Shown here: positions 10,018-56,661 of the stretch, one piece after another
Numbering within the stretch: position 1 is the first letter of the stretch
Layout of the letters: each line of letters begins with the position of its first letter
Source of the DNA: Palleronia salina
GTDB taxonomy: Bacteria; Pseudomonadota; Alphaproteobacteria; Rhodobacterales; Rhodobacteraceae
NCBI RefSeq assembly: GCF_900141995.1
Contig: NZ_FQZA01000001.1
Span: forward strand, 286,392 to 350,391
Direction of reading: 5' to 3'
DNA: 64,000 bases
Translations under genes and position numbers: made by a program
The notes under the pieces: generated by a model
The model's database searches: none
What the model was told of the DNA's origin: nothing
What the model saw: only the letters and a program-made list of their open reading frames with translations

Positions 10018-11222
10018 TGTCCCAAAATTCGTTGACGCAACCGGGCCGCGTCGAGTTCGTGGCCATGGTTGCCGTCCTGTTCGCCACGTTGGCGTTTTCC
10101 ATCGACACGATGCTGCCCGCCCTGCCCGAGATCGCCGGCACGCTGACCCCGGACGACCCGAACCGCGCGCAGCTCGTGGTGACCTCGTTCATCTTCGGCA
10201 TGGGGGTCGGCACGCTATTCGCCGGGCCGATCTCGGACACCGTGGGGCGCAAGGCGGGCATCCTCGGGGGGCTGGGGCTGTATATCCTGGGCGCGGCACT
10301 GGCGAGCCGGGCGCAGACGCTCGAGACGCTCATGGCCGCGCGGGTGGTGCAGGGCCTGGGCGCGGCGGGGCCGCGGATCGTCAGCCAGGCCATGATCCGC
10401 GACCGGTTCGAGGGGCGCGAAATGGCGCAGATCATGTCCTTCGTGATGATGATCTTCATCCTCGTGCCGGCGATGAGCCCGGCGGCCGGCAGCCTGGTCA
10501 TCGACGGCTTCGGCTGGCGCGCGATCTTCTGGGCCTTCGTGATCTTCGCGCTGTTCGGCGGCACCTGGCTGGCGTTGCGCCAGCCCGAGACCCTGCCGCG
10601 CGAGGGGCGCCACCCGCTGCGTATCGGGATCGTGTGGCTCGCGCTGAAGGAGACGCTGCGGCGGCCCGAGGTGCGGCTCTATATCGCCGTGCTGACGCTG
10701 GGCACCGGGCAGATGTTCGCGCTGATCAGTTCGGTCCAGCCGATCTATGACCAGTCGCTGGGCATGGCGGACAGCTTCGCCTTCTGGTTCATGGCCACCG
10801 CCCTGCTGGCCGGCACGGGCACGATCGTGAACGCGGCGCTGGTCATGCGGCTGGGCATGCGGCGCCTGGCGATCACGGCCTACGCGGCGCAGGGGGTGAT
10901 CTCGCTGGTGTTGGTTGCGGCCGAGGTGGCGGGGCTGGTGCCCGCCGAGGCGGCGTTTCCGGTGTTCTTCGCCTGGTCGGTGTCGGTCTTCTTCATGGTC
11001 GGCCTGACCTTCGGCAATCTCAACTCGCTGGCGCTGCAGCCCCTGGGCCATATCGCCGGGACGGCTGCGTCGGTGATCGGCGCGATCTCGACGATCCTGG
11101 GCGTGGTCATCGCCGTGCCGATCGGGCTGGCCTTCAACGGCTCGCCCATGCCGCTTTATGTCGGCACGGGCGTCTGTTCGGCGCTGGCCTACCTGCTCAT
11201 GCGGCGCACGGTGGAAAGCTAG
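10017..11222 (+). CDS. MFS multidrug efflux transporter, Bcr/CflA type
   Basis: 401 aa, about 12 transmembrane segments. The N-terminus has DTMLPALPEIAG in helix 1 and the MFS motif A GPISDTVGRKAG between helices 2 and 3. MAARVVQGLGAAGPRIVSQAMIRDRF is the Bcr/CflA-type helix 4 region. Probably exports small hydrophobic drugs in exchange for protons. It starts one base inside the stop of the upstream methyltransferase gene and converges with mfd, sharing 4 bp at the stops. Confidence 0.88.
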   Translation: MSQNSLTQPGRVEFVAMVAVLFATLAFSIDTMLPALPEIAGTLTPDDPNRAQLVVTSFIFGMGVGTLFAGPISDTVGRKAGILGGLGLYILGAALASRAQTLETLMAARVVQGLGAAGPRIVSQAMIRDRFEGREMAQIMSFVMMIFILVPAMSPAAGSLVIDGFGWRAIFWAFVIFALFGGTWLALRQPETLPREGRHPLRIGIVWLALKETLRRPEVRLYIAVLTLGTGQMFALISSVQPIYDQSLGMADSFAFWFMATALLAGTGTIVNAALVMRLGMRRLAITAYAAQGVISLVLVAAEVAGLVPAEAAFPVFFAWSVSVFFMVGLTFGNLNSLALQPLGHIAGTAASVIGAISTILGVVIAVPIGLAFNGSPMPLYVGTGVCSALAYLLMRRTVES

Positions 11223-14200
11223 GATTTTTCGGGCGTCTTCTGGCCCACGTCCAGCGCGCGGCGCAGGTCCTGGGCGATCGAGAAGGCGCCCTTGATCTTG
11301 TCGCTGTCCTTTTTCCAGTCCCGGCGCACGACGATCTTGTTGTCCTTGACCTTGGCCTGGCCCTTCTGGTCGTTGATGAACTTCACCAGGCCCTGCGGGT
11401 TCGCGAACTTGTCGTTGTGGAACTGGATCGTCGCGCCCTTCGGCCCTGCATCGAGTTTGGCGATGCCGGCGCGCTTGCACTCGGCCTTGATGCGCACCAC
11501 CAGCAGCAGCGTGTTGACCTCTTTCGGGAGCTTGCCGAAGCGGTCGATCAACTCGGCGGCGAAGCCTTCCAGCTCGACCTTCGAGGTCAGGTCCGACAGG
11601 CGGCGGTAGAGCCCCAGTCGCACGTCGAGATCGGGCACGTAGTCTTCGGGGATCAGCACGGCGACGCCCAGGTTGATCTGGGGCGACCATTCACCCATCT
11701 CGCCCAGGCCGTCGATGCCTTCCAGTTCGCCCGCCTTCAGCTTGGAAATCGTCTCTTCCAGCATGGACTGGTAAAGCTCGTAGCCGACCTCGCGGATCTG
11801 GCCCGATTGCTCCTCACCCACGAGGTTGCCCGCGCCGCGGATATCGAGATCCTGGCTGGCCAGCATGAAGCCCGCCCCGAGGCTGTCGAGCGATCCCAGA
11901 ACGCGCAGGCGCTTCTCGGCCGTGGGGGTCAGCTTGGCGCGTGGCTTGGTGGTCAGGTAGGCATAGGCGCGGGTCTTGGCGCGCCCCACCCGGCCCCGGA
12001 TCTGGTAGAGCTGCGCCAGCCCGAACATGTCGGCGCGGTGCACGATCATCGTGTTGGCCGTGGGGATATCGAGGCCCGATTCGACGATGGTGGTGGCCAG
12101 CAGCACGTCGTAGGCGCCGTCGTAGAAGGCGTTCATGCGGTCGTCGAGCTCGCCCGCCGCCATCTGGCCGTTGGCCACGATATAGGTGATCTCGGGCACC
12201 TCGTTCTTCAGGAACTCCTCCATCTCGGCCAGGTCCTTGATGCGCGGGACCACGATGAAGCTTTGCCCCCCGCGATAGTGTTCGCGCAGGAGCGCCTCGC
12301 GGATGGTCAGCACGTCGAATTCGGACACGTAGGTGCGGATCGCCAGGCGGTCGACGGGCGGCGTGCCGATGATCGACAGGTCGCGCACGCCGGTCAGGCT
12401 CAGTTGCAGGGTGCGCGGGATGGGCGTCGCGGTCAGGGTCAGGACGTGGACGTCGGTGCGCAGCTGTTTCAGGCGCTCCTTGTGGCTGACGCCGAAATGC
12501 TGCTCTTCGTCGATGACCAGCAGGCCGAGATTCTTGAACTTCACCGATTTCGCCAGCAGCGCGTGGGTGCCGATGATGATGTCGCAGCCGCCATCGGCCA
12601 TCCGTTGCCGCGCCATGTCGCTGTCCTTCTTCGACACGAAGCGGGACAGCTGGCGCACCTCGATCGGGAAGCCCTTGAAGCGTTCACTGAACGACTTGTA
12701 GTGCTGGCGCGCCAGAAGGGTCGTCGGCGCGATCACGGCCACCTGCACGCCCGACATGGCGGCGATGAAGGCGGCGCGCATGGCGACCTCGGTCTTGCCG
12801 AAGCCCACGTCGCCGACGATCAGCCGGTCCATGGGCGTGCCCGAGGACAGATCGCCCATCACGTCCTCGATGGCCGACATCTGGTCGTCGGTCTCGTCAT
12901 AGGGGAAGCGGGCGCTGAAATCCTCCCAGGCGTGGTCGGGCGGATCCAGCACCGGGGCCTTGCGCAAGAGCCGCTCGGCCGCGACGCGGATCAGGCGGTC
13001 GGCGATCTCGCGGATGCGTTCCTTCAGGCGCGCCTTCTTGGCTTGCCAGGCCCCGCCGCCCAGCTTGTCGAGCATTCCTTCCTCGTGGCCGAACCGGCTG
13101 AGGAGTTCGATATTCTCGACGGGAAGATACAGGCGGTCGCCGCCCGCGTATTCCAGCAGGAGGCATTCATGCGCGGCGCCCAGGGCCGAGACGACCTCCA
13201 TCCCCTGGTAGCGCCCGACGCCGTGGTCCACGTGGACGATCAGGTCGCCGATGCTGAGCGATTGCGCCTCGGTCAGGAAGTTCTCGGCCCGGCGCTTCTT
13301 GGGCGTCTTGCGCACCAGCCGGTCGCCCAGCACGTCCTGTTCCGAGATCACCGTCAGGCGGCCGTCCTCGTACGGCCCCTCGAACCCGTGGTCGAGGCCC
13401 CAGACCGCCAGGTATAGCCCGCCCTTGCCCTCGGGCACGTCGCGGAAGTCGCGGATCTCGGTCGCGCCGTCGACGTCTTCGTCTTCCAGCAGCCCGGCCA
13501 GCCGCTCCCGCGCACCGCTGGAATAGGAGGCAACGATGACCTGCCCATCCTTGCGTTTCGCCTTGATGTGGTCCGCCAAGGCACCGAAAAGGCTGACGCT
13601 TTCCTGCTGGCGCTCGGGCGAGAAATTGCGCCCGATGCGGCCGCCCGCGTCGACGACGTTCGGCCCCGACGCCTGCGCCAGCGGATGGAAGCGGATGGTG
13701 CGGTGGCCTTCGGTCGCCTGCTCCCACGCGTCGTCGTCCAGGTACAGCTGCTCCGGCGGCGCGGGCTTGTAGACGGTATCGACCCGGCCCTTCTTGGTCA
13801 TCGCGTCGCGGCGGTTGTCGTAGGCGTCGGTGACCATTTCCCACCGCGCGACGCGGGCGGGCGTGACCTGATCATCGAGTGTGATCGCTGCCTCCGGAAG
13901 GTAGTCGAACAGCGTCTCCAGCCGGTCGTGGAAGAAGCCCAGCCAGTGCTCGATCCCCGCGTGTTTCTTGCCCGCGCTCACGGCCTCGTAGAGCGGATCG
14001 TCGGTGCCAGCTGCCCCGAACTCGATCCGGTAGGCCTGGCGGAACCGGGTGATCGCGGCATCGTCGAGGATCACCTCGCTGACCGGGGCCAGTTCGACCT
14101 GGTCCAGCTTCTCGGTGGTGCGCTGGGTGACGGCGTCGAAGCGGCGCGCGCCGTCCAGCACGTCGCCGAACAGGTCCAGCCGCACCGGACCGCCCTCGCC

Positions 14201-14701
14201 CGGCGGCCAGACGTCGATGATGCCGCCGCGAATGGCGTAGTCGCCAGGCTCCATCACCGTGGGGGCCTGGGTGAACCCCATGCGCACGAAGAAATCGCGC
14301 AGCCCGGCCTCGTCGATCCGGTCGCCCACCCGCGCGGTGAAGGCCGAGCCGCTCAGCACGTCGCGGGGCGGAATCCGCTGGGTCGCGGCGTTCACGGTGG
14401 TCAGCAGCACGAAGCGCTTCGGCATCCCGTGCACCAGCGCCGCCAGCGTCGCCATGCGCGCGGCCGAGATGTCGGCGTTGGGCGACACGCGATCGTAGGG
14501 CAGGCAATCCCAGGCGGGGAAAGTGAAGACGGGCAGCGACGGGTCGTAGAAGGCCAGCGCGGCCTGCATCGCCGCCAGCCGCTTGTCGTCGCGCGCCACG
14601 TGGACCAGCGCGCCATCGGCCTTCGCCAGTTCGGACAGGACCAGGCGCGCGTCGAACCCTTCGGGCGCGCCGCCCATGGTGATGAAGCCGGATTTTGACA
14701 T
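11219..14701 (-). CDS. mfd: Transcription-repair coupling factor
   Basis: 1160 aa, normal for Mfd. It displaces stalled RNA polymerase and recruits UvrA. Domains in order: UvrB-homology region (~1-330, FPAWDCLPYDRVSP), the RNA-polymerase-interaction (CarD-like) domain (DLIVHVDHGVGRYQGME), and the RecG-like translocase with Walker A GDVGFGKTEVAMRA, the DEAD-box variant DEEQHFG and TATPIPRTLQ. The C-terminal D7 domain follows. The start MSKSGFITMGGAPEG is chosen because the long upstream extension lies opposite the ornithine decarboxylase gene. Confidence 0.96.
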   Translation of the reverse strand: MSKSGFITMGGAPEGFDARLVLSELAKADGALVHVARDDKRLAAMQAALAFYDPSLPVFTFPAWDCLPYDRVSPNADISAARMATLAALVHGMPKRFVLLTTVNAATQRIPPRDVLSGSAFTARVGDRIDEAGLRDFFVRMGFTQAPTVMEPGDYAIRGGIIDVWPPGEGGPVRLDLFGDVLDGARRFDAVTQRTTEKLDQVELAPVSEVILDDAAITRFRQAYRIEFGAAGTDDPLYEAVSAGKKHAGIEHWLGFFHDRLETLFDYLPEAAITLDDQVTPARVARWEMVTDAYDNRRDAMTKKGRVDTVYKPAPPEQLYLDDDAWEQATEGHRTIRFHPLAQASGPNVVDAGGRIGRNFSPERQQESVSLFGALADHIKAKRKDGQVIVASYSSGARERLAGLLEDEDVDGATEIRDFRDVPEGKGGLYLAVWGLDHGFEGPYEDGRLTVISEQDVLGDRLVRKTPKKRRAENFLTEAQSLSIGDLIVHVDHGVGRYQGMEVVSALGAAHECLLLEYAGGDRLYLPVENIELLSRFGHEEGMLDKLGGGAWQAKKARLKERIREIADRLIRVAAERLLRKAPVLDPPDHAWEDFSARFPYDETDDQMSAIEDVMGDLSSGTPMDRLIVGDVGFGKTEVAMRAAFIAAMSGVQVAVIAPTTLLARQHYKSFSERFKGFPIEVRQLSRFVSKKDSDMARQRMADGGCDIIIGTHALLAKSVKFKNLGLLVIDEEQHFGVSHKERLKQLRTDVHVLTLTATPIPRTLQLSLTGVRDLSIIGTPPVDRLAIRTYVSEFDVLTIREALLREHYRGGQSFIVVPRIKDLAEMEEFLKNEVPEITYIVANGQMAAGELDDRMNAFYDGAYDVLLATTIVESGLDIPTANTMIVHRADMFGLAQLYQIRGRVGRAKTRAYAYLTTKPRAKLTPTAEKRLRVLGSLDSLGAGFMLASQDLDIRGAGNLVGEEQSGQIREVGYELYQSMLEETISKLKAGELEGIDGLGEMGEWSPQINLGVAVLIPEDYVPDLDVRLGLYRRLSDLTSKVELEGFAAELIDRFGKLPKEVNTLLLVVRIKAECKRAGIAKLDAGPKGATIQFHNDKFANPQGLVKFINDQKGQAKVKDNKIVVRRDWKKDSDKIKGAFSIAQDLRRALDVGQKTPEKS

Positions 14702-14839
14702 GGACGCCTCAGGTAACGGCCCCGCGCCCGGTGTCAATCGCCAGTGCGCCGTGACCTGCCTGCATCGCCTGTCGGGCATGCGGAAGTTTCGGGCAATCGA
14801 AGGAAATTTCCCCTTGATCCAACGACGGTTGGGCCTCAT

Positions 14840-14905
14840 ATGCGCGACCAAGACGCCAACGCACGCGCCTCTGTTCGGGCCATTGCCCTCACGCAGCGAC
14901 GGTAA
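14840..14905 (+). CDS. Arg-rich leader peptide of the ornithine decarboxylase gene (candidate)
   Basis: A 21-codon frame, ATG CGC GAC CAA ... CAG CGA CGG TAA, lies 60 bp before the ODC start. It encodes five arginines and ends Gln-Arg-Arg-stop. The last codons and the TAA lie in a hairpin (14894-14916; CAGCG/CGCTG plus ACG/CGT, GUAA loop), so a ribosome stalled there would change RNA folding. Enterobacteria use a leader peptide (SpeFL) that stalls with ornithine upstream of speF; this may be an alphaproteobacterial analogue. It lacks a strong ribosome site, and a possible -10 (CATATG) overlaps its ATG, so translation is unproven. Confidence 0.45.
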   Translation: MRDQDANARASVRAIALTQRR

Positions 14906-14959
14906 CGTCTCCGCTGTCACTTTCGGGGGGCTGAACCAGTCCCTCCGGGTCCACTGGAG
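14840..14959 (+). promoter_or_regulatory. speF-type mRNA leader with two competing hairpins
   Basis: A leader element (speF motif) is known from alphaproteobacteria ahead of ODC genes. Here hairpin 1 (14894-14916) overlaps the end of the leader peptide. A second structure pairs CCAGT (14936-14940) with ACTGG (14953-14957), or CTCC (14943-14946) with the ribosome site GGAG (14956-14959). Either second form would block translation of the decarboxylase. Whether this is exactly the published motif needs a covariance-model search. Confidence 0.5.
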
Positions 14960-14965
14960 ATGCCC

Positions 14966-16138
14966 ATGACCGCCCTTGCCACAGACCGCGCTCTGCGCGG
15001 TACCGATTCCATCACCGACCGTCTGGACGCGGCCATCGCCGCGACCACGTTTGACCGGCCTACTCTGGTCCTGGACCTGGACATCGTGTCCCGGAACTTC
15101 CAGGCCCTTCAGCGCGGCCTGGGCGATGCGTCGATCCACTATGCCGTGAAGGCCAACCCCGCACCCCAGGTGATCGAGCGCCTGGCGATGCTGGGCTGCC
15201 ATTTCGATGCCGCCTCGCGCGGCGAGATCGAGTTGTGCCTGAGCATGGGTGCCCGCCCCGAGCATGTGAGCTTCGGCAACACCATCAAGCGCGCGACCGA
15301 CATCGCCTTCGCCCATCGCGCGGGCATCACCATGTTCGCCGCCGATGCCGAGGAAGAGCTTGAGAAAATCGCCGAGCATGCGCCCGGTGCGCAGGTCTAT
15401 CTGCGCCTGATCGTCGAACCCACGGGCGCCGACTGGCCGCTCACCCGCAAGTTCGGCTGCGCGCCCGCCCGGGTCGAGGGCCTGCTGGCCTATGCCCGCG
15501 ATCTGGGCCTCGATGCCATCGGGCTGTCGTTCCACGTGGGCTCGCAAACCCGTCACGCGCATATGTGGTCCGACACGCTGAATCAGGTGGCCGCCACCTG
15601 GCACGCCGTCCGCGCCGCCGGTTTCGACCTGCGCCTGCTGAACATCGGTGGCGGCTTTCCCGCCTTCCACGGCGACGACGTGGACCCGCTGGAAGCCTAC
15701 TCGCGCGACGTGATGGCCCAGGTGCGCGCGCGCTTCGGCGACGCCGTGCAGATCATGGCCGAGCCGGGTCGCGGCATGGTGGCCGATGCCGGCGCCATTG
15801 CCGCCGAGGTTCTGCTGGTCAGCCGCAAGAGCGACGACGACCTGCACCGCTGGGTGTATCTGGATGTGGGCCGCTTCTCGGGCCTGGCCGAGACCGAGGG
15901 CGAGGCGATCCGCTACCAGTTCGAGACCGCTCGCGATGGCGACGAGGCCGGCCCCTGCATCCTTGCGGGCCCCAGCTGCGACAGCGTCGACGTGCTGTAC
16001 GAAAAGCGTCCCGTTTCGCTGCCCGTGAGCCTGCGCGCCGGCGACCGCGTCGTGATCCGCAATTGCGGCGCCTATACCTCGAGCTACAGCTCGGTCGGCT
16101 TCAACGGCTTCCCGCCGCTGGACGTCATGGTGATCTGA
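14966..16138 (+). CDS. Ornithine decarboxylase (type III PLP fold, eukaryote-like)
   Basis: 390 aa. Converts ornithine to putrescine. Seen: PLP lysine in HYAVKANP, FDAASRGEIEL, the GSQT phosphate-region motif in LSFHVGSQTRHAH, NIGGGFPAFHG, EPGRGMVADAG, the reactive CDSVDVLYE loop and the tail ...GAYTSSYSSVGFNGFPP. These match the alanine-racemase-fold ODC family. The second of two nearby ATGs is chosen because GGAG lies 6 nt before it; the first ATG (14960) directly abuts GGAG. Confidence 0.92.
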   Translation: MTALATDRALRGTDSITDRLDAAIAATTFDRPTLVLDLDIVSRNFQALQRGLGDASIHYAVKANPAPQVIERLAMLGCHFDAASRGEIELCLSMGARPEHVSFGNTIKRATDIAFAHRAGITMFAADAEEELEKIAEHAPGAQVYLRLIVEPTGADWPLTRKFGCAPARVEGLLAYARDLGLDAIGLSFHVGSQTRHAHMWSDTLNQVAATWHAVRAAGFDLRLLNIGGGFPAFHGDDVDPLEAYSRDVMAQVRARFGDAVQIMAEPGRGMVADAGAIAAEVLLVSRKSDDDLHRWVYLDVGRFSGLAETEGEAIRYQFETARDGDEAGPCILAGPSCDSVDVLYEKRPVSLPVSLRAGDRVVIRNCGAYTSSYSSVGFNGFPPLDVMVI

Positions 16139-51937: not shown

Positions 51938-51951
51938 TGGTGCGGGCGGTG
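51938..51951 (-). repeat. attR: 14-bp direct repeat in the tRNA 3' end
   Basis: TGGTGCGGGCGGTG, including the encoded CCA and the 3' acceptor strand. Confidence 0.85.
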
Positions 51952-52024
51952 GGACTCGAACCCACACGGGGCTACGCCCCAACAGATTTTAAGTCTGGTA
52001 TGTCTACCATTCCATCACGCCCGC
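51938..52024 (-). tRNA. tRNA-Leu(UAA)
   Basis: 87 nt with encoded CCA. Minus strand begins GCGGGCGTGATGGAATGGTA; anticodon TAA in the loop ACTTAAAATC; long variable arm GGGGCGTAGCCCC; T-arm GGGTTCGAGTCCC; acceptor closes with CCGCCCGCA. Serves as the element attachment site. Confidence 0.95.
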
Positions 52025-52053: not shown

Positions 52054-52139
52054 TGGTACCCGTGGCCGGACTCGAACCGGCACGCTGTCACCAGCGGGGG
52101 ATTTTGAATCCCCTGCGTCTACCATTCCGCCACACGGGC
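52054..52139 (-). tRNA. tRNA-Leu(CAA)
   Basis: 86 nt with CCA. Begins GCCCGTGTGGCGGAATGGTA; anticodon CAA in GATTCAAAATC; variable arm GCTGGTGACAGC; T-arm CCGGTTCGAGTCCGG. The first acceptor pair is G-U. Lies 29 bp upstream of the UAA tRNA on the same strand. Confidence 0.95.
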
Positions 52140-54220: not shown

Positions 54221-54693
54221 CTGCACGTAGATTGATGATCCTGGCCGGGCTCGGCTCGGCCGCGCTGCTGGGCGGCGCCTACATCTTCCAGGCGCTGGGC
54301 TACGCGCCGTGCCAGATGTGTCTCTGGCAGCGCTGGCCGCACATGGTGGCGATCGCGCTGGGCGTTTCGGCACTGTTCTTAGCCCGGCTTCCGGTCGCCA
54401 TCGCGGGCGCGCTGGCCGCCCTGACCACCGCACTCATCGGCGTCTACCACACCGGGGTCGAGCGTGACTGGTGGGAAGGCCCCTCCTCGTGCTCGGGCGG
54501 GGGCGACATCACCGGGCTGACGGGGGCGGATCTGCTGTCGACCGACGTGCTCGACAAGGTCGTGATGTGCGACGAGGTCAGCTGGGCGCTCTTCGGCCTG
54601 TCGATGCCGTCGTGGAACGCGCTGTTCTCGTTCCTGCTCGCCGCGATCTGGATCCTCGCCGCCCGCCAGAGCCTGAAGGAGTCCCGCCTATGA
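54217..54693 (+). CDS. dsbB: Disulfide bond formation protein B
   Basis: 158 aa, four membrane helices. The first periplasmic loop has the redox pair APCQMCLWQRWPH, and the second loop the pair Cys in PSSCSGGG and VVMCDEV. The GTG start overlaps the YqaA stop (GTGA). Re-oxidises periplasmic thiol oxidases with quinone. Confidence 0.9.
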   Translation: MTARRLMILAGLGSAALLGGAYIFQALGYAPCQMCLWQRWPHMVAIALGVSALFLARLPVAIAGALAALTTALIGVYHTGVERDWWEGPSSCSGGGDITGLTGADLLSTDVLDKVVMCDEVSWALFGLSMPSWNALFSFLLAAIWILAARQSLKESRL

Positions 54694-55607
54694 CCGATAT
54701 CACCCTGTTGGGGGTCCCGCTCGATTGCGGGAAGGACCGCAAGGGGTGCCTCATGGGGCCCGATGCCTATCGCGTGGCCGGTGTGGCCGAGGCGCTGGCC
54801 GAGCTGGGTCATGCCGTCACCGACGCCGGCAACCTCGCCCCCGGCCCCCTGCCCGAGGTCAGCGGCCCCGCGCACCTGGTGGATCTGGCCGAGAACGTCG
54901 CCTGGACCGGCACCCTGATCGAGGCCGGGCGCGCCGTCGACGGGATGCCGATCTTCCTGGGCGGCGACCATGCGCTGGCCATGGGCAGCGTCGCCGGCAT
55001 GGCGGCGCGGGCGCAGGATCGCAACCGGCCGCTCTTCGTGCTGTGGCTGGACGCGCATAGCGATTTCCACACGCCGCACTCCACCCAGTCGGGCAACCTG
55101 CATGGCTGCCCCGTGGCCTATTTCACGGGCCAGCCCGGCTTCGACGCCTTTCCGGCGCCGCCCGCGCCCGTGCCGCCCGACCGGGTCTGCATGATCGGCC
55201 TGCGCTCGGTCGACGGGCCGGAGAAGACCGCCGTCACCGCCGCCCGCGTCACCACCCACGACATGCGCGAGATCGACGAGACCGGCATCGCCATGCCGCT
55301 GCGCTCGTTCCTCGCGCACGTGGCGCAGGCGGGCGGTGACCTTCATGTCTCGCTCGACGTGGATTTCCTGGACCCCTCCATCGCACCGGCGGTGGGCACG
55401 ACCGTTCCGGGGGGCGCCACCTTCCGCGAGGCGCACCTGGTCATGGAGATGCTCAGTGAATCGGGCCTCGTGAGCTCGCTGGACCTGGTCGAGCTGAACC
55501 CGGCGCTGGACGAGCGCGGGCGCACCGCGTCGCTCATGGTGGACCTGACCGCGTCGCTCATGGGCCGCCGGATCTTCGACCGGCCCACCCAAAGCTTCGG
55601 GGCCTGA
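54690..55607 (+). CDS. rocF: Arginase
   Basis: 305 aa. Hydrolyses arginine to ornithine and urea. Binuclear-manganese ligands are in GGDHALAMG, WLDAHSDFHTP and SLDVDFLDPS, with NLHGCPVAY as the substrate region. Its ATG overlaps the dsbB stop, and the cyclodeaminase gene follows 4 bp later, a compact arginine-to-proline route. Confidence 0.93.
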   Translation: MTDITLLGVPLDCGKDRKGCLMGPDAYRVAGVAEALAELGHAVTDAGNLAPGPLPEVSGPAHLVDLAENVAWTGTLIEAGRAVDGMPIFLGGDHALAMGSVAGMAARAQDRNRPLFVLWLDAHSDFHTPHSTQSGNLHGCPVAYFTGQPGFDAFPAPPAPVPPDRVCMIGLRSVDGPEKTAVTAARVTTHDMREIDETGIAMPLRSFLAHVAQAGGDLHVSLDVDFLDPSIAPAVGTTVPGGATFREAHLVMEMLSESGLVSSLDLVELNPALDERGRTASLMVDLTASLMGRRIFDRPTQSFGA

Positions 55608-55611
55608 GGCC

Positions 55612-56661
55612 ATGGCGCTCACCCCCTCACCGCTGGCCTACGTGCCCTTCGTGTCGGTGGAAAACATGATGAAGCTGGTCCACCGCGTCGGGGTCGAGAC
55701 ATTTCTCAAGGAACTCGCCGACCGGATCGAGGACGATTTCCGCCGCTGGCCGCTTTTCGACAAGACCCCGCGCGTGGCGGCCCATTCGGCCGATGGCGTG
55801 ATCGAACTGATGCCGACCTCGGATGGCGAGACCTACGGCTTCAAGTACGTGAACGGCCACCCCAAGAACATGAAGGATGGACTGCAGACCGTGACCGCCT
55901 TCGGCCTGCTGGCCTCGGTCGAGACGGGCTACCCGGTGCTGCTGTCCGAGATGACGGTGCTGACGGCCCTGCGCACGGCCGCCATGTCCGCGATGGCAGC
56001 CCGGCACCTCGCCCCCGACAACGCGCGGGTCATGGCGATGATCGGGAACGGCGCGCAGGCCGAGTTCCAGGCGCTGGGGATGAAGGCCGTCTGCGGTATC
56101 GATACGGTGCGGCTGTGGGATATCGACCGCAGGGCCACGGACAAGGTGGTGCGCAATCTCGAGGGATCGGGCCTGACGGTCGTGGCCTGCGCCAGCGCCG
56201 AAGAGGCGATGGAAGGCGCGCAGATCGTCACCACCTGCACGGCCGACAAGCAGTTCGCCACCATCCTGACCGACAACATGGTGGGTGCGGGCGTGCACCT
56301 GAACGCGGTGGGCGGCGACTGCCCCGGCAAGACCGAGCTGCACCGCGATATCCTGGCGCGCAGCACGATCTTCGTCGAATATCCCGAGCAGACCCGGATC
56401 GAGGGCGAGATCCAGCAGCTGGACCCCGACCACCCCGTGACCGAGCTCTGGCAGGTCATCACCGGCGACGCGCCCGGCCGGACCGGGCCGGACCAGCTGA
56501 CCCTGTTCGATTCGGTGGGCTTCGCGGTCGAGGATTTCAGCGCCCTGACCTACGTGCGCGACAAGCTCGAAGGGACGGACCTGTTCGACAAGCTCGACCT
56601 GCTGGCCGATCCCGACGATCCGCGCGACCTTTTCGGCATGCTCCAGCGCGCGGCGCCCTAG
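55612..56661 (+). CDS. Ornithine cyclodeaminase
   Basis: 349 aa, NAD-dependent conversion of ornithine to proline and ammonia. Seen: GFKYVNGHPKN (substrate Lys), the Rossmann motif MAMIGNGAQAEFQALG, and GVHLNAVGGDCPGKTEL. Sits 4 bp after arginase, so co-expressed. Shares 4 bp at its stop with the convergent thioesterase gene. Confidence 0.93.
   Translation: MALTPSPLAYVPFVSVENMMKLVHRVGVETFLKELADRIEDDFRRWPLFDKTPRVAAHSADGVIELMPTSDGETYGFKYVNGHPKNMKDGLQTVTAFGLLASVETGYPVLLSEMTVLTALRTAAMSAMAARHLAPDNARVMAMIGNGAQAEFQALGMKAVCGIDTVRLWDIDRRATDKVVRNLEGSGLTVVACASAEEAMEGAQIVTTCTADKQFATILTDNMVGAGVHLNAVGGDCPGKTELHRDILARSTIFVEYPEQTRIEGEIQQLDPDHPVTELWQVITGDAPGRTGPDQLTLFDSVGFAVEDFSALTYVRDKLEGTDLFDKLDLLADPDDPRDLFGMLQRAAP

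Follow-up and report, generated by a model that had tools for sequence, protein, structure and literature searches.

The leader of the ornithine decarboxylase (ODC) gene of Palleronia salina is probably a structured regulatory RNA that controls ODC translation. Sequence relatives of this RNA precede several polyamine-synthesis genes in other Alphaproteobacteria, and the element is best read as an RNA that controls translation in polyamine synthesis across the class, perhaps as a riboswitch. What looks like an ordinary upstream open reading frame (uORF) in this leader owes its appearance, on the sequence evidence, to a conserved regulatory RNA. Comparison with relatives gives good support to the view that the element is an RNA and that it bears on the translation of ODC. 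The window, i.e. the whole stretch of DNA that was analysed, comprises 64,000 nt of Palleronia salina contig NZ_FQZA01000001.1 (GCF_900141995.1), positions 286,392-350,391 of the forward strand.

The ODC gene is located at 14966-16138 on the plus strand (PF02784, 4e-52). The nearest solved structure to the encoded protein is lysine/ornithine decarboxylase 2plj (4.5e-54). Translation likely starts at ATG 14966 rather than at ATG 14960, the start given by the program that lists open reading frames, as inferred from the spacing to the Shine-Dalgarno sequence. The latter, GGAGAUG, occupies positions 14956-14962 (plus strand), and GGAGAT is invariant in an alignment of 46 sequences. The GGAG ribosome site at 14956-14959 and the ODC-type decarboxylase downstream, both described in an earlier note made from the sequence of this DNA, are found in the sequence and by Pfam, respectively. 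The genes of the arginase and ornithine cyclodeaminase families that it had placed at 54.7-56.7 kb are also present (frames 54471-55604 and 55612-56658). The divergent gene beside ODC (11219-14700, minus strand) looks, from its sequence, like that of transcription-repair coupling factor Mfd. Two adjoining tRNA genes are found on the minus strand at 51941-52024 and 52057-52139.

Relatives of the locus were taken as the best 80 loci of a scan of named genomes, whose titles are nearly all Rhodobacteraceae or Rhodobacterales. The nearest one belongs to Palleronia pelagia (L003, DSM 26893) and encodes an ODC that is 98% identical. Two near-invariant blocks are observed upstream of ODC in 79 of the 80 loci. 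The 80th, L082, is cut by a contig end that leaves just 34 nt of upstream sequence, and it has no element row. The 80 leaders considered below are the 79 loci with the core plus the window; the window's own locus (L001) and a distant paralogue (L002) are left out of the counts. For alignment, these leaders were thinned to 53, of which 46 were aligned. Block A (14851-14873, plus strand) is found with at most 4 mismatches in 79/80 loci, and 19 of its 23 positions are invariant in the 46 aligned sequences. Its first five nucleotides, AGACG (14851-14855), form the 5' strand of a helix, P1, discussed below. A variable linker follows at 14874-14892 (plus strand); comparison of the 80 loci gives it a length of 16-64 nt in the relatives. 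Block B (14893-14911, plus strand) is near-invariant in the 80 loci as well as in the 46-sequence alignment.

A covariance model built from the 46 sequences, the window's included (R1), matches positions 14848-14969 with 92.5 bits. The window was not among the sequences of a second model, R2, and this model matches 14850-14919 (28.5 bits). The fold of region 14800-14990 is not stronger than that of shuffled sequences (z -0.55, 54 of 200 shuffles being at least as good). The beyond-chance signal at the leader is nucleotide conservation, rather than fold strength.

The start of the RNA can be placed from its promoter. The earlier note had named TTGATC, 17 nt and CATATG as a possible promoter. 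The two elements are there, at 14814-14819 (-35) and 14837-14842 (-10) of the plus strand, and they are kept in place across the leaders: TTG[ACT] occurs at -48 to -34 from block A in 79/80 of them and at -37 or -38 in 63, and the 80 leaders have an A/T-rich profile at the -10 position. The -10 element has no T at position -7, which is usual: a study of four alphaproteobacterial species reports that more than 60% of their sigma-70 promoters lack it (PMC8407463). A scan of the window with a strict sigma-70 consensus gave 0 promoter-like sites and did not call the TTGATC/CATATG pair. Transcription would start about 7-9 nt after the -10 element, at 14849-14851 (plus strand). Because the placement of the -10 and -35 elements is conserved, the ODC message should begin at block A. 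As a separate observation, the first ODC codons contain a short hairpin (14985-15001 in the window). A stem of at least 5 pairs is present within 72 nt of the start in 78/80 leaders, the hairpin sequences differing from one leader to another; its mean stem score is 15.2, compared with 9.9 for codon shuffles and 11.6 in 320 later gene windows.

The element is closely tied to the ODC gene. R1 finds one copy in the Palleronia salina genome, and no second copy at E 1. It matches 88 of the 196 genomes of the order (Rhodobacterales). When 20 of these 88 genomes were tested, this ODC was present in 19, versus 0 of the first 20 tested among the 108 genomes that R1 does not match (E 1e-60). In the exception, G460 (L119), ODC is present as three fragments and the core is visibly decayed. 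In this genome the core thus decays along with the gene, which provides a natural control for the association of the two.

In the class, R1 matches 11 of 385 genomes, in all 11 cases upstream of an ODC-like gene. R2 was built on the 8 of these 11 that lie outside the window's family. It matches 64 of the 385 genomes, in 81 places, at E 0.01 per genome, a threshold at which a few chance matches are expected among 385 genomes. Two of the matches, L166 and L194, in which the core is absent, were taken as chance; L194 is the sole match in its genome, so that at most 63/385 genomes hold the core according to the R2 search. In a phylum sample of 299 genomes, whose class make-up is not given, R2 matches 11, and all 11 belong to the window's class.

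Of the 81 R2 places, we fetched 76; the five others are three from the window's family, G135 and G382. ODC lies downstream of 44 of these copies and a second ODC-like decarboxylase downstream of 20; in 4 copies a gene is inserted between the core and ODC, and 8 copies have no ODC. The intervening gene encodes homospermidine synthase in L155 (PDB 4xq9, 9e-177), and those of L153, L180 and L184 read like it. A search of the Palleronia salina genome with one query did not find homospermidine synthase. L196, where the contig ends, is missing from the counts of motifs in 73 copies given below; it has the core letters and was kept in the gene tally. The copies without ODC include the chance matches L166 and L194, three (L154, L161 and L181) that are cut by contig ends, and L162, the single copy in which the core precedes SpeD-SpeE. 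Hence one core is found ahead of different genes of the polyamine pathway: ODC, the second ODC-like enzyme, homospermidine synthase and, in one copy, SpeD-SpeE.

Some further features of these loci may be mentioned. The last two of the eight copies without ODC are L136, where the core precedes a glutamine-amidotransferase-like gene, and L151, where it precedes a frame of 136 residues that neither Pfam nor NCBIfam recognises at E 1e-5. The second ODC-like enzyme carries a recurring Arg-rich N-terminal motif, approximately R-x-A-V-x-P-L-R-R (L132, L137, L145, L149, L156, L160 and L169). In L186, a divergent core and an ODC-like gene are followed by a deoxyhypusine-synthase-like gene (NCBIfam: 1,9-bis(guanidino)-5-aza-nonane synthase). 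In L169, an agmatinase gene follows the core and the ODC-like gene.

A long irregular helix can form between blocks A and B; its base, P1, pairs AGACG with CGUCU. Within Rhodobacterales, a clear double change in P1 is seen in L054 alone. There, both strands are changed together, to AGAAG and CUUCU, which keeps P1 and breaks a local GUAA hairpin and one anti-Shine-Dalgarno pair. We also aligned 76 distinct sequences to the model, distant copies among them; this alignment is fitted to the structure and contains the sequences used to build R1. Pairing holds in 96.5% of its cells, and double changes occur in 11 of 18 pairs, versus a mean of 4.4 in shuffles, 0 of 500 being as high as 11. The R2 alignment of copies outside the order, also fitted to the structure and containing the eight sequences used to build the model, has double changes in 8 of 16 pairs compared with 1.6 in shuffles. 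A shift of register in L086 and L090 accounts for some of the double changes. With RNAalifold and no given structure, the 46-sequence alignment gives a covariation term of -0.42 and a double change in 1 of 16 pairs. Covariation is near nil in this case because the blocks hardly vary within the order; the signal came only from more distant copies. The hairpin predicted between the core and the ribosome site in the window fold (14924-14947, plus strand) corresponds to P3 of the relatives, in which 5 of 5 pairs show double changes in the 76 distinct model-aligned sequences.

P1 is nearly weightless in predicted ensembles, its highest value being 0.01 among the 80 leaders. Its existence thus rests on comparison and, if P1 forms, a stabiliser is needed; a ligand or a bound factor would do so. 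This near-zero weight is also the main weakness of the model. The local alternative is the GUAA-capped hairpin of the earlier note, GACG-GUAA-CGUC (14898-14909, plus strand). The hairpin is indeed there in the window sequence, but exceeds 0.5 in just three of the 80 leaders (0.67 in the window, 0.52 in L003 and 0.97 in L080), and the L054 change breaks its helix.

The strand CGUCUCC (14906-14912, plus strand) is complementary both to AGACG, within P1, and to the Shine-Dalgarno sequence, with which it can form 7 pairs (14956-14962). In ViennaRNA ensembles, the pairing of CGUCUCC with the Shine-Dalgarno sequence exceeds 0.5 in 77/80 leaders, while 88 of 240 foldings reach 0.5 when the 7-mer is shuffled. 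The window is among the three exceptions, with 0.25 for the hiding pairing and 0.67 for the local GUAA hairpin. None of the 80 leaders has Shine-Dalgarno bases that are more than half free. The idea that a downstream structure can hide the ODC ribosome site is therefore supported in silico, in 77 of 80 leaders, the window's own not being one of them.

Outside Rhodobacterales, 68 of the 76 copies are followed, at a distance of 30-53 nt (median 39) from the core, by a start codon that has a Shine-Dalgarno-like sequence. The hiding test was carried out on these 68, which do not include L162; the 8 others were skipped for want of a start codon or core. The segment directly 3' of GCAACGACG pairs with the Shine-Dalgarno sequence at more than 0.5 in 58/68 copies versus 29% of shuffles. 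Hand reading of copies such as L121 indicates that P1 and the hiding helix share only about two bases there. Hence, their mutual exclusion, and its sign, may not hold outside the order. In many of these copies, a short frame, variable in sequence, begins at the start codon after the core and precedes ODC, so that the controlled target may be that frame first. One such peptide, MVA...AGR...PRY...SSIG, is common to L121, L125 and L126.

From these in silico results, namely conservation, gene association, promoter position and alternative complementarity, we infer a switch, its sign and its ligand as follows. The RNA would start at about position 14850, and its conserved core would fold by pairing of block A with block B. 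CGUCU, the 3' strand of the basal helix P1, would belong to the CGUCUCC strand, whose other complement is the ODC Shine-Dalgarno sequence. Since the two pairings have this strand in common, P1 and hiding of the site should be mutually exclusive within Rhodobacterales. With P1 open, the ribosome site would be hidden (off state); with P1 closed, it would be free (on state). The same core, at a near-fixed distance from the site of initiation (median 39 nt outside Rhodobacterales), precedes several polyamine genes, and the signal is thus most likely the state of the polyamine pool, a view drawn from gene association. This signal could be read by the RNA itself, as in a riboswitch, or by a bound protein or RNA. 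That the RNA directly senses a polyamine or a metabolite of the pathway is a serious possibility, to which we would give somewhat less than an even chance. A more far-reaching reading, with a similar chance, is that the core may be the aptamer of an unrecognised class of polyamine riboswitch, unrelated to the SAM-I-derived one, that sets the translation of ODC, homospermidine synthase and SpeD-SpeE in many Alphaproteobacteria. The ligand would be a triamine or an intermediate outside the set tested by Corbino et al., such as homospermidine or carboxyspermidine, and the speF element would be an elaborated form of the same RNA. The presence of the core on several polyamine genes points to pathway products beyond ODC alone, and in this way suggests ligands.

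Alternatively, the core might bind no metabolite and be the binding site of a polyamine-sensing protein or small RNA acting in trans. Such a factor would fit the very high conservation, which extends beyond the proposed helices, and the finding that the Agrobacterium tumefaciens relative bound none of the metabolites tested (PMC1273637). The association with several genes of one pathway fits a riboswitch equally. We know of no candidate trans-acting factor, which counts against this alternative, and we regard it as rather unlikely.

Control of transcription is an improbable explanation. In an attenuator, P1 followed by a U run would make an intrinsic terminator and, outside the order, at least 4 consecutive U are found within 22 nt after GCAACGACG in 47 of 73 copies. 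However, a like rule finds such a run in only 6 of the 80 Rhodobacterales leaders, and P1 is short beneath a long loop. In 58/68 leaders the Shine-Dalgarno region is paired with the very segment in which the U run lies, so that the run is better read as an anti-Shine-Dalgarno sequence than as part of a terminator. An intrinsic terminator was also sought in the window itself and was rejected, as the scan found no terminator-like site. We give little credit to a passive structured leader, or a thermosensor, that would keep ODC translation low in the absence of any metabolite signal. Hiding of the ribosome site does dominate the predicted folds, as such a leader would have it, but the near-invariant blocks and the sharing of one core by different polyamine genes would be left unexplained.

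The earlier note had proposed that the 21-codon frame encodes a stalling leader peptide, as with SpeFL. In such a peptide-based control, ribosomes stalled on the Gln-Arg-Arg end would free the ODC site. The open frame and its Arg-rich end are real: it runs from ATG 14840 to TAA 14903-14905 (14840-14905, plus strand) and has 21 codons ending in Gln-Arg-Arg. Conservation of the frame is not observed. The Gln-Arg-Arg end is kept in 6/80 leaders, an ATG in the window's frame is found within 25 nt of block A in 37/80, and the linker length keeps that frame in 31/80. Where the window has CAG, 59/80 leaders have TAG. In the 46-sequence alignment, first, second and third codon positions of both blocks are all nearly unvarying, which leaves a synonymous bias in conservation no room to show. 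Outside Rhodobacterales, the CAACGACG motif is preceded by AUG in 40 of 73 copies, the other triplets being AAG (23), ACG (6) and CAG (4). Moreover, the ATG (14840-14842) sits inside the conserved -10 position, CATATG, and the inferred start of the message falls within the supposed frame; on paper, ATG 14840 would belong to the promoter and not to the message. The two outcomes that the note had named as speaking against its peptide, a start within the frame and a lack of conservation, are thus both obtained on paper. We therefore judge that the frame is not a gene and is a by-product of the conserved RNA, and a stalling leader peptide is very improbable.

The enteric SpeFL/orf34 system resembles the window in being an ODC leader able to hide the ribosome site. 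It is described as peptide-based, with a conserved domain (PMC6386406), whereas no conserved peptide is found in the window leader. The odc1 element (Brewer et al. 2021) is an alphaproteobacterial ODC leader with the ribosome site in a stem, as is proposed here. Its description mentions two UUG starts two nt apart and a uORF of 11 residues (PMC8632094). In contrast, the window ODC starts at ATG 14966 and no TTG-NN-TTG is found in 14840-14969, which sets the window leader apart from odc1 as far as that description goes. The spermidine riboswitch is also a leader RNA on polyamine genes. It is reported to be derived from the SAM-I aptamer (PMC10853860), whereas the window stretch that was searched matched no Rfam SAM family. 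Searches of the open-licence PMC literature gave the phrase "polyamine riboswitch" in this SAM-I variant paper alone. Among the titles and abstract openings that they listed, none describes the present element, be it from Rhodobacterales or ahead of homospermidine synthase or SpeD-SpeE. According to Salvail et al., more polyamine riboswitch classes are to be expected (PMC10853860).

The closest likeness is with the speF element of Rhizobiales (RF00518), an alphaproteobacterial ODC leader whose conservation starts near the transcription start (Corbino et al. 2005, PMC1273637). It is described as a stem with a large variable insertion, followed by about 80 conserved nt that form a bulged stem-loop (PMC1273637). 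The speF element lies upstream of ODC (COG0019), and so does the window core, as judged from Pfam and the structure match. The window likewise has the 5' domain, a stem near the start with a variable insertion, as indicated by the R2 match. The core CGCACGUGCC...GCAACGACGG...UUUUUUGG is common to the speF-type loci L094, L095 and L098. Of 6 RF00518 loci, four of which are above Rfam's cut-off, 5 have an R2 match that adjoins the Rfam match on its 5' side. The E-values are modest (0.0018-0.03 in 18.8 kb), and just the 3' half of R2 aligns well in L099. In the loci seen, the RF00518 model covers only the part 3' of the core. Conversely, RF00518 (gathering score 37 bits) has no match in the window, in the Palleronia salina genome, in the 12 of 80 loci scanned or in L084-L093, and no Rfam family was assigned to the window element from the window, the 12 loci and L084-L093. 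The speF 3' stem-loop of about 80 nt is not seen in the window, where the interval from block B to the ODC start codon is just 54 nt and RF00518 has no match. The core blocks, P1 and the distance to the start codon also differ. The window element thus appears to be a relative of the speF 5' domain that lacks the 3' domain, and it falls outside RF00518 in its modelled form.

The A. tumefaciens speF RNA did not bind the tested metabolites, ornithine included (PMC1273637); the level of ornithine or arginine had been suggested as the signal in the earlier note. By analogy, this result would count against putrescine, cadaverine and spermidine as ligands of the window RNA, within what that report covers. 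The speF ligand was listed as unknown in a 2013 survey (PMC3766115) and the function of the element was called unclear in a 2020 paper (PMC7717549). The speF leader, reported in 2005, is still an orphan, and its 5' domain, found here as a compact stand-alone core, is a minimal RNA to test.
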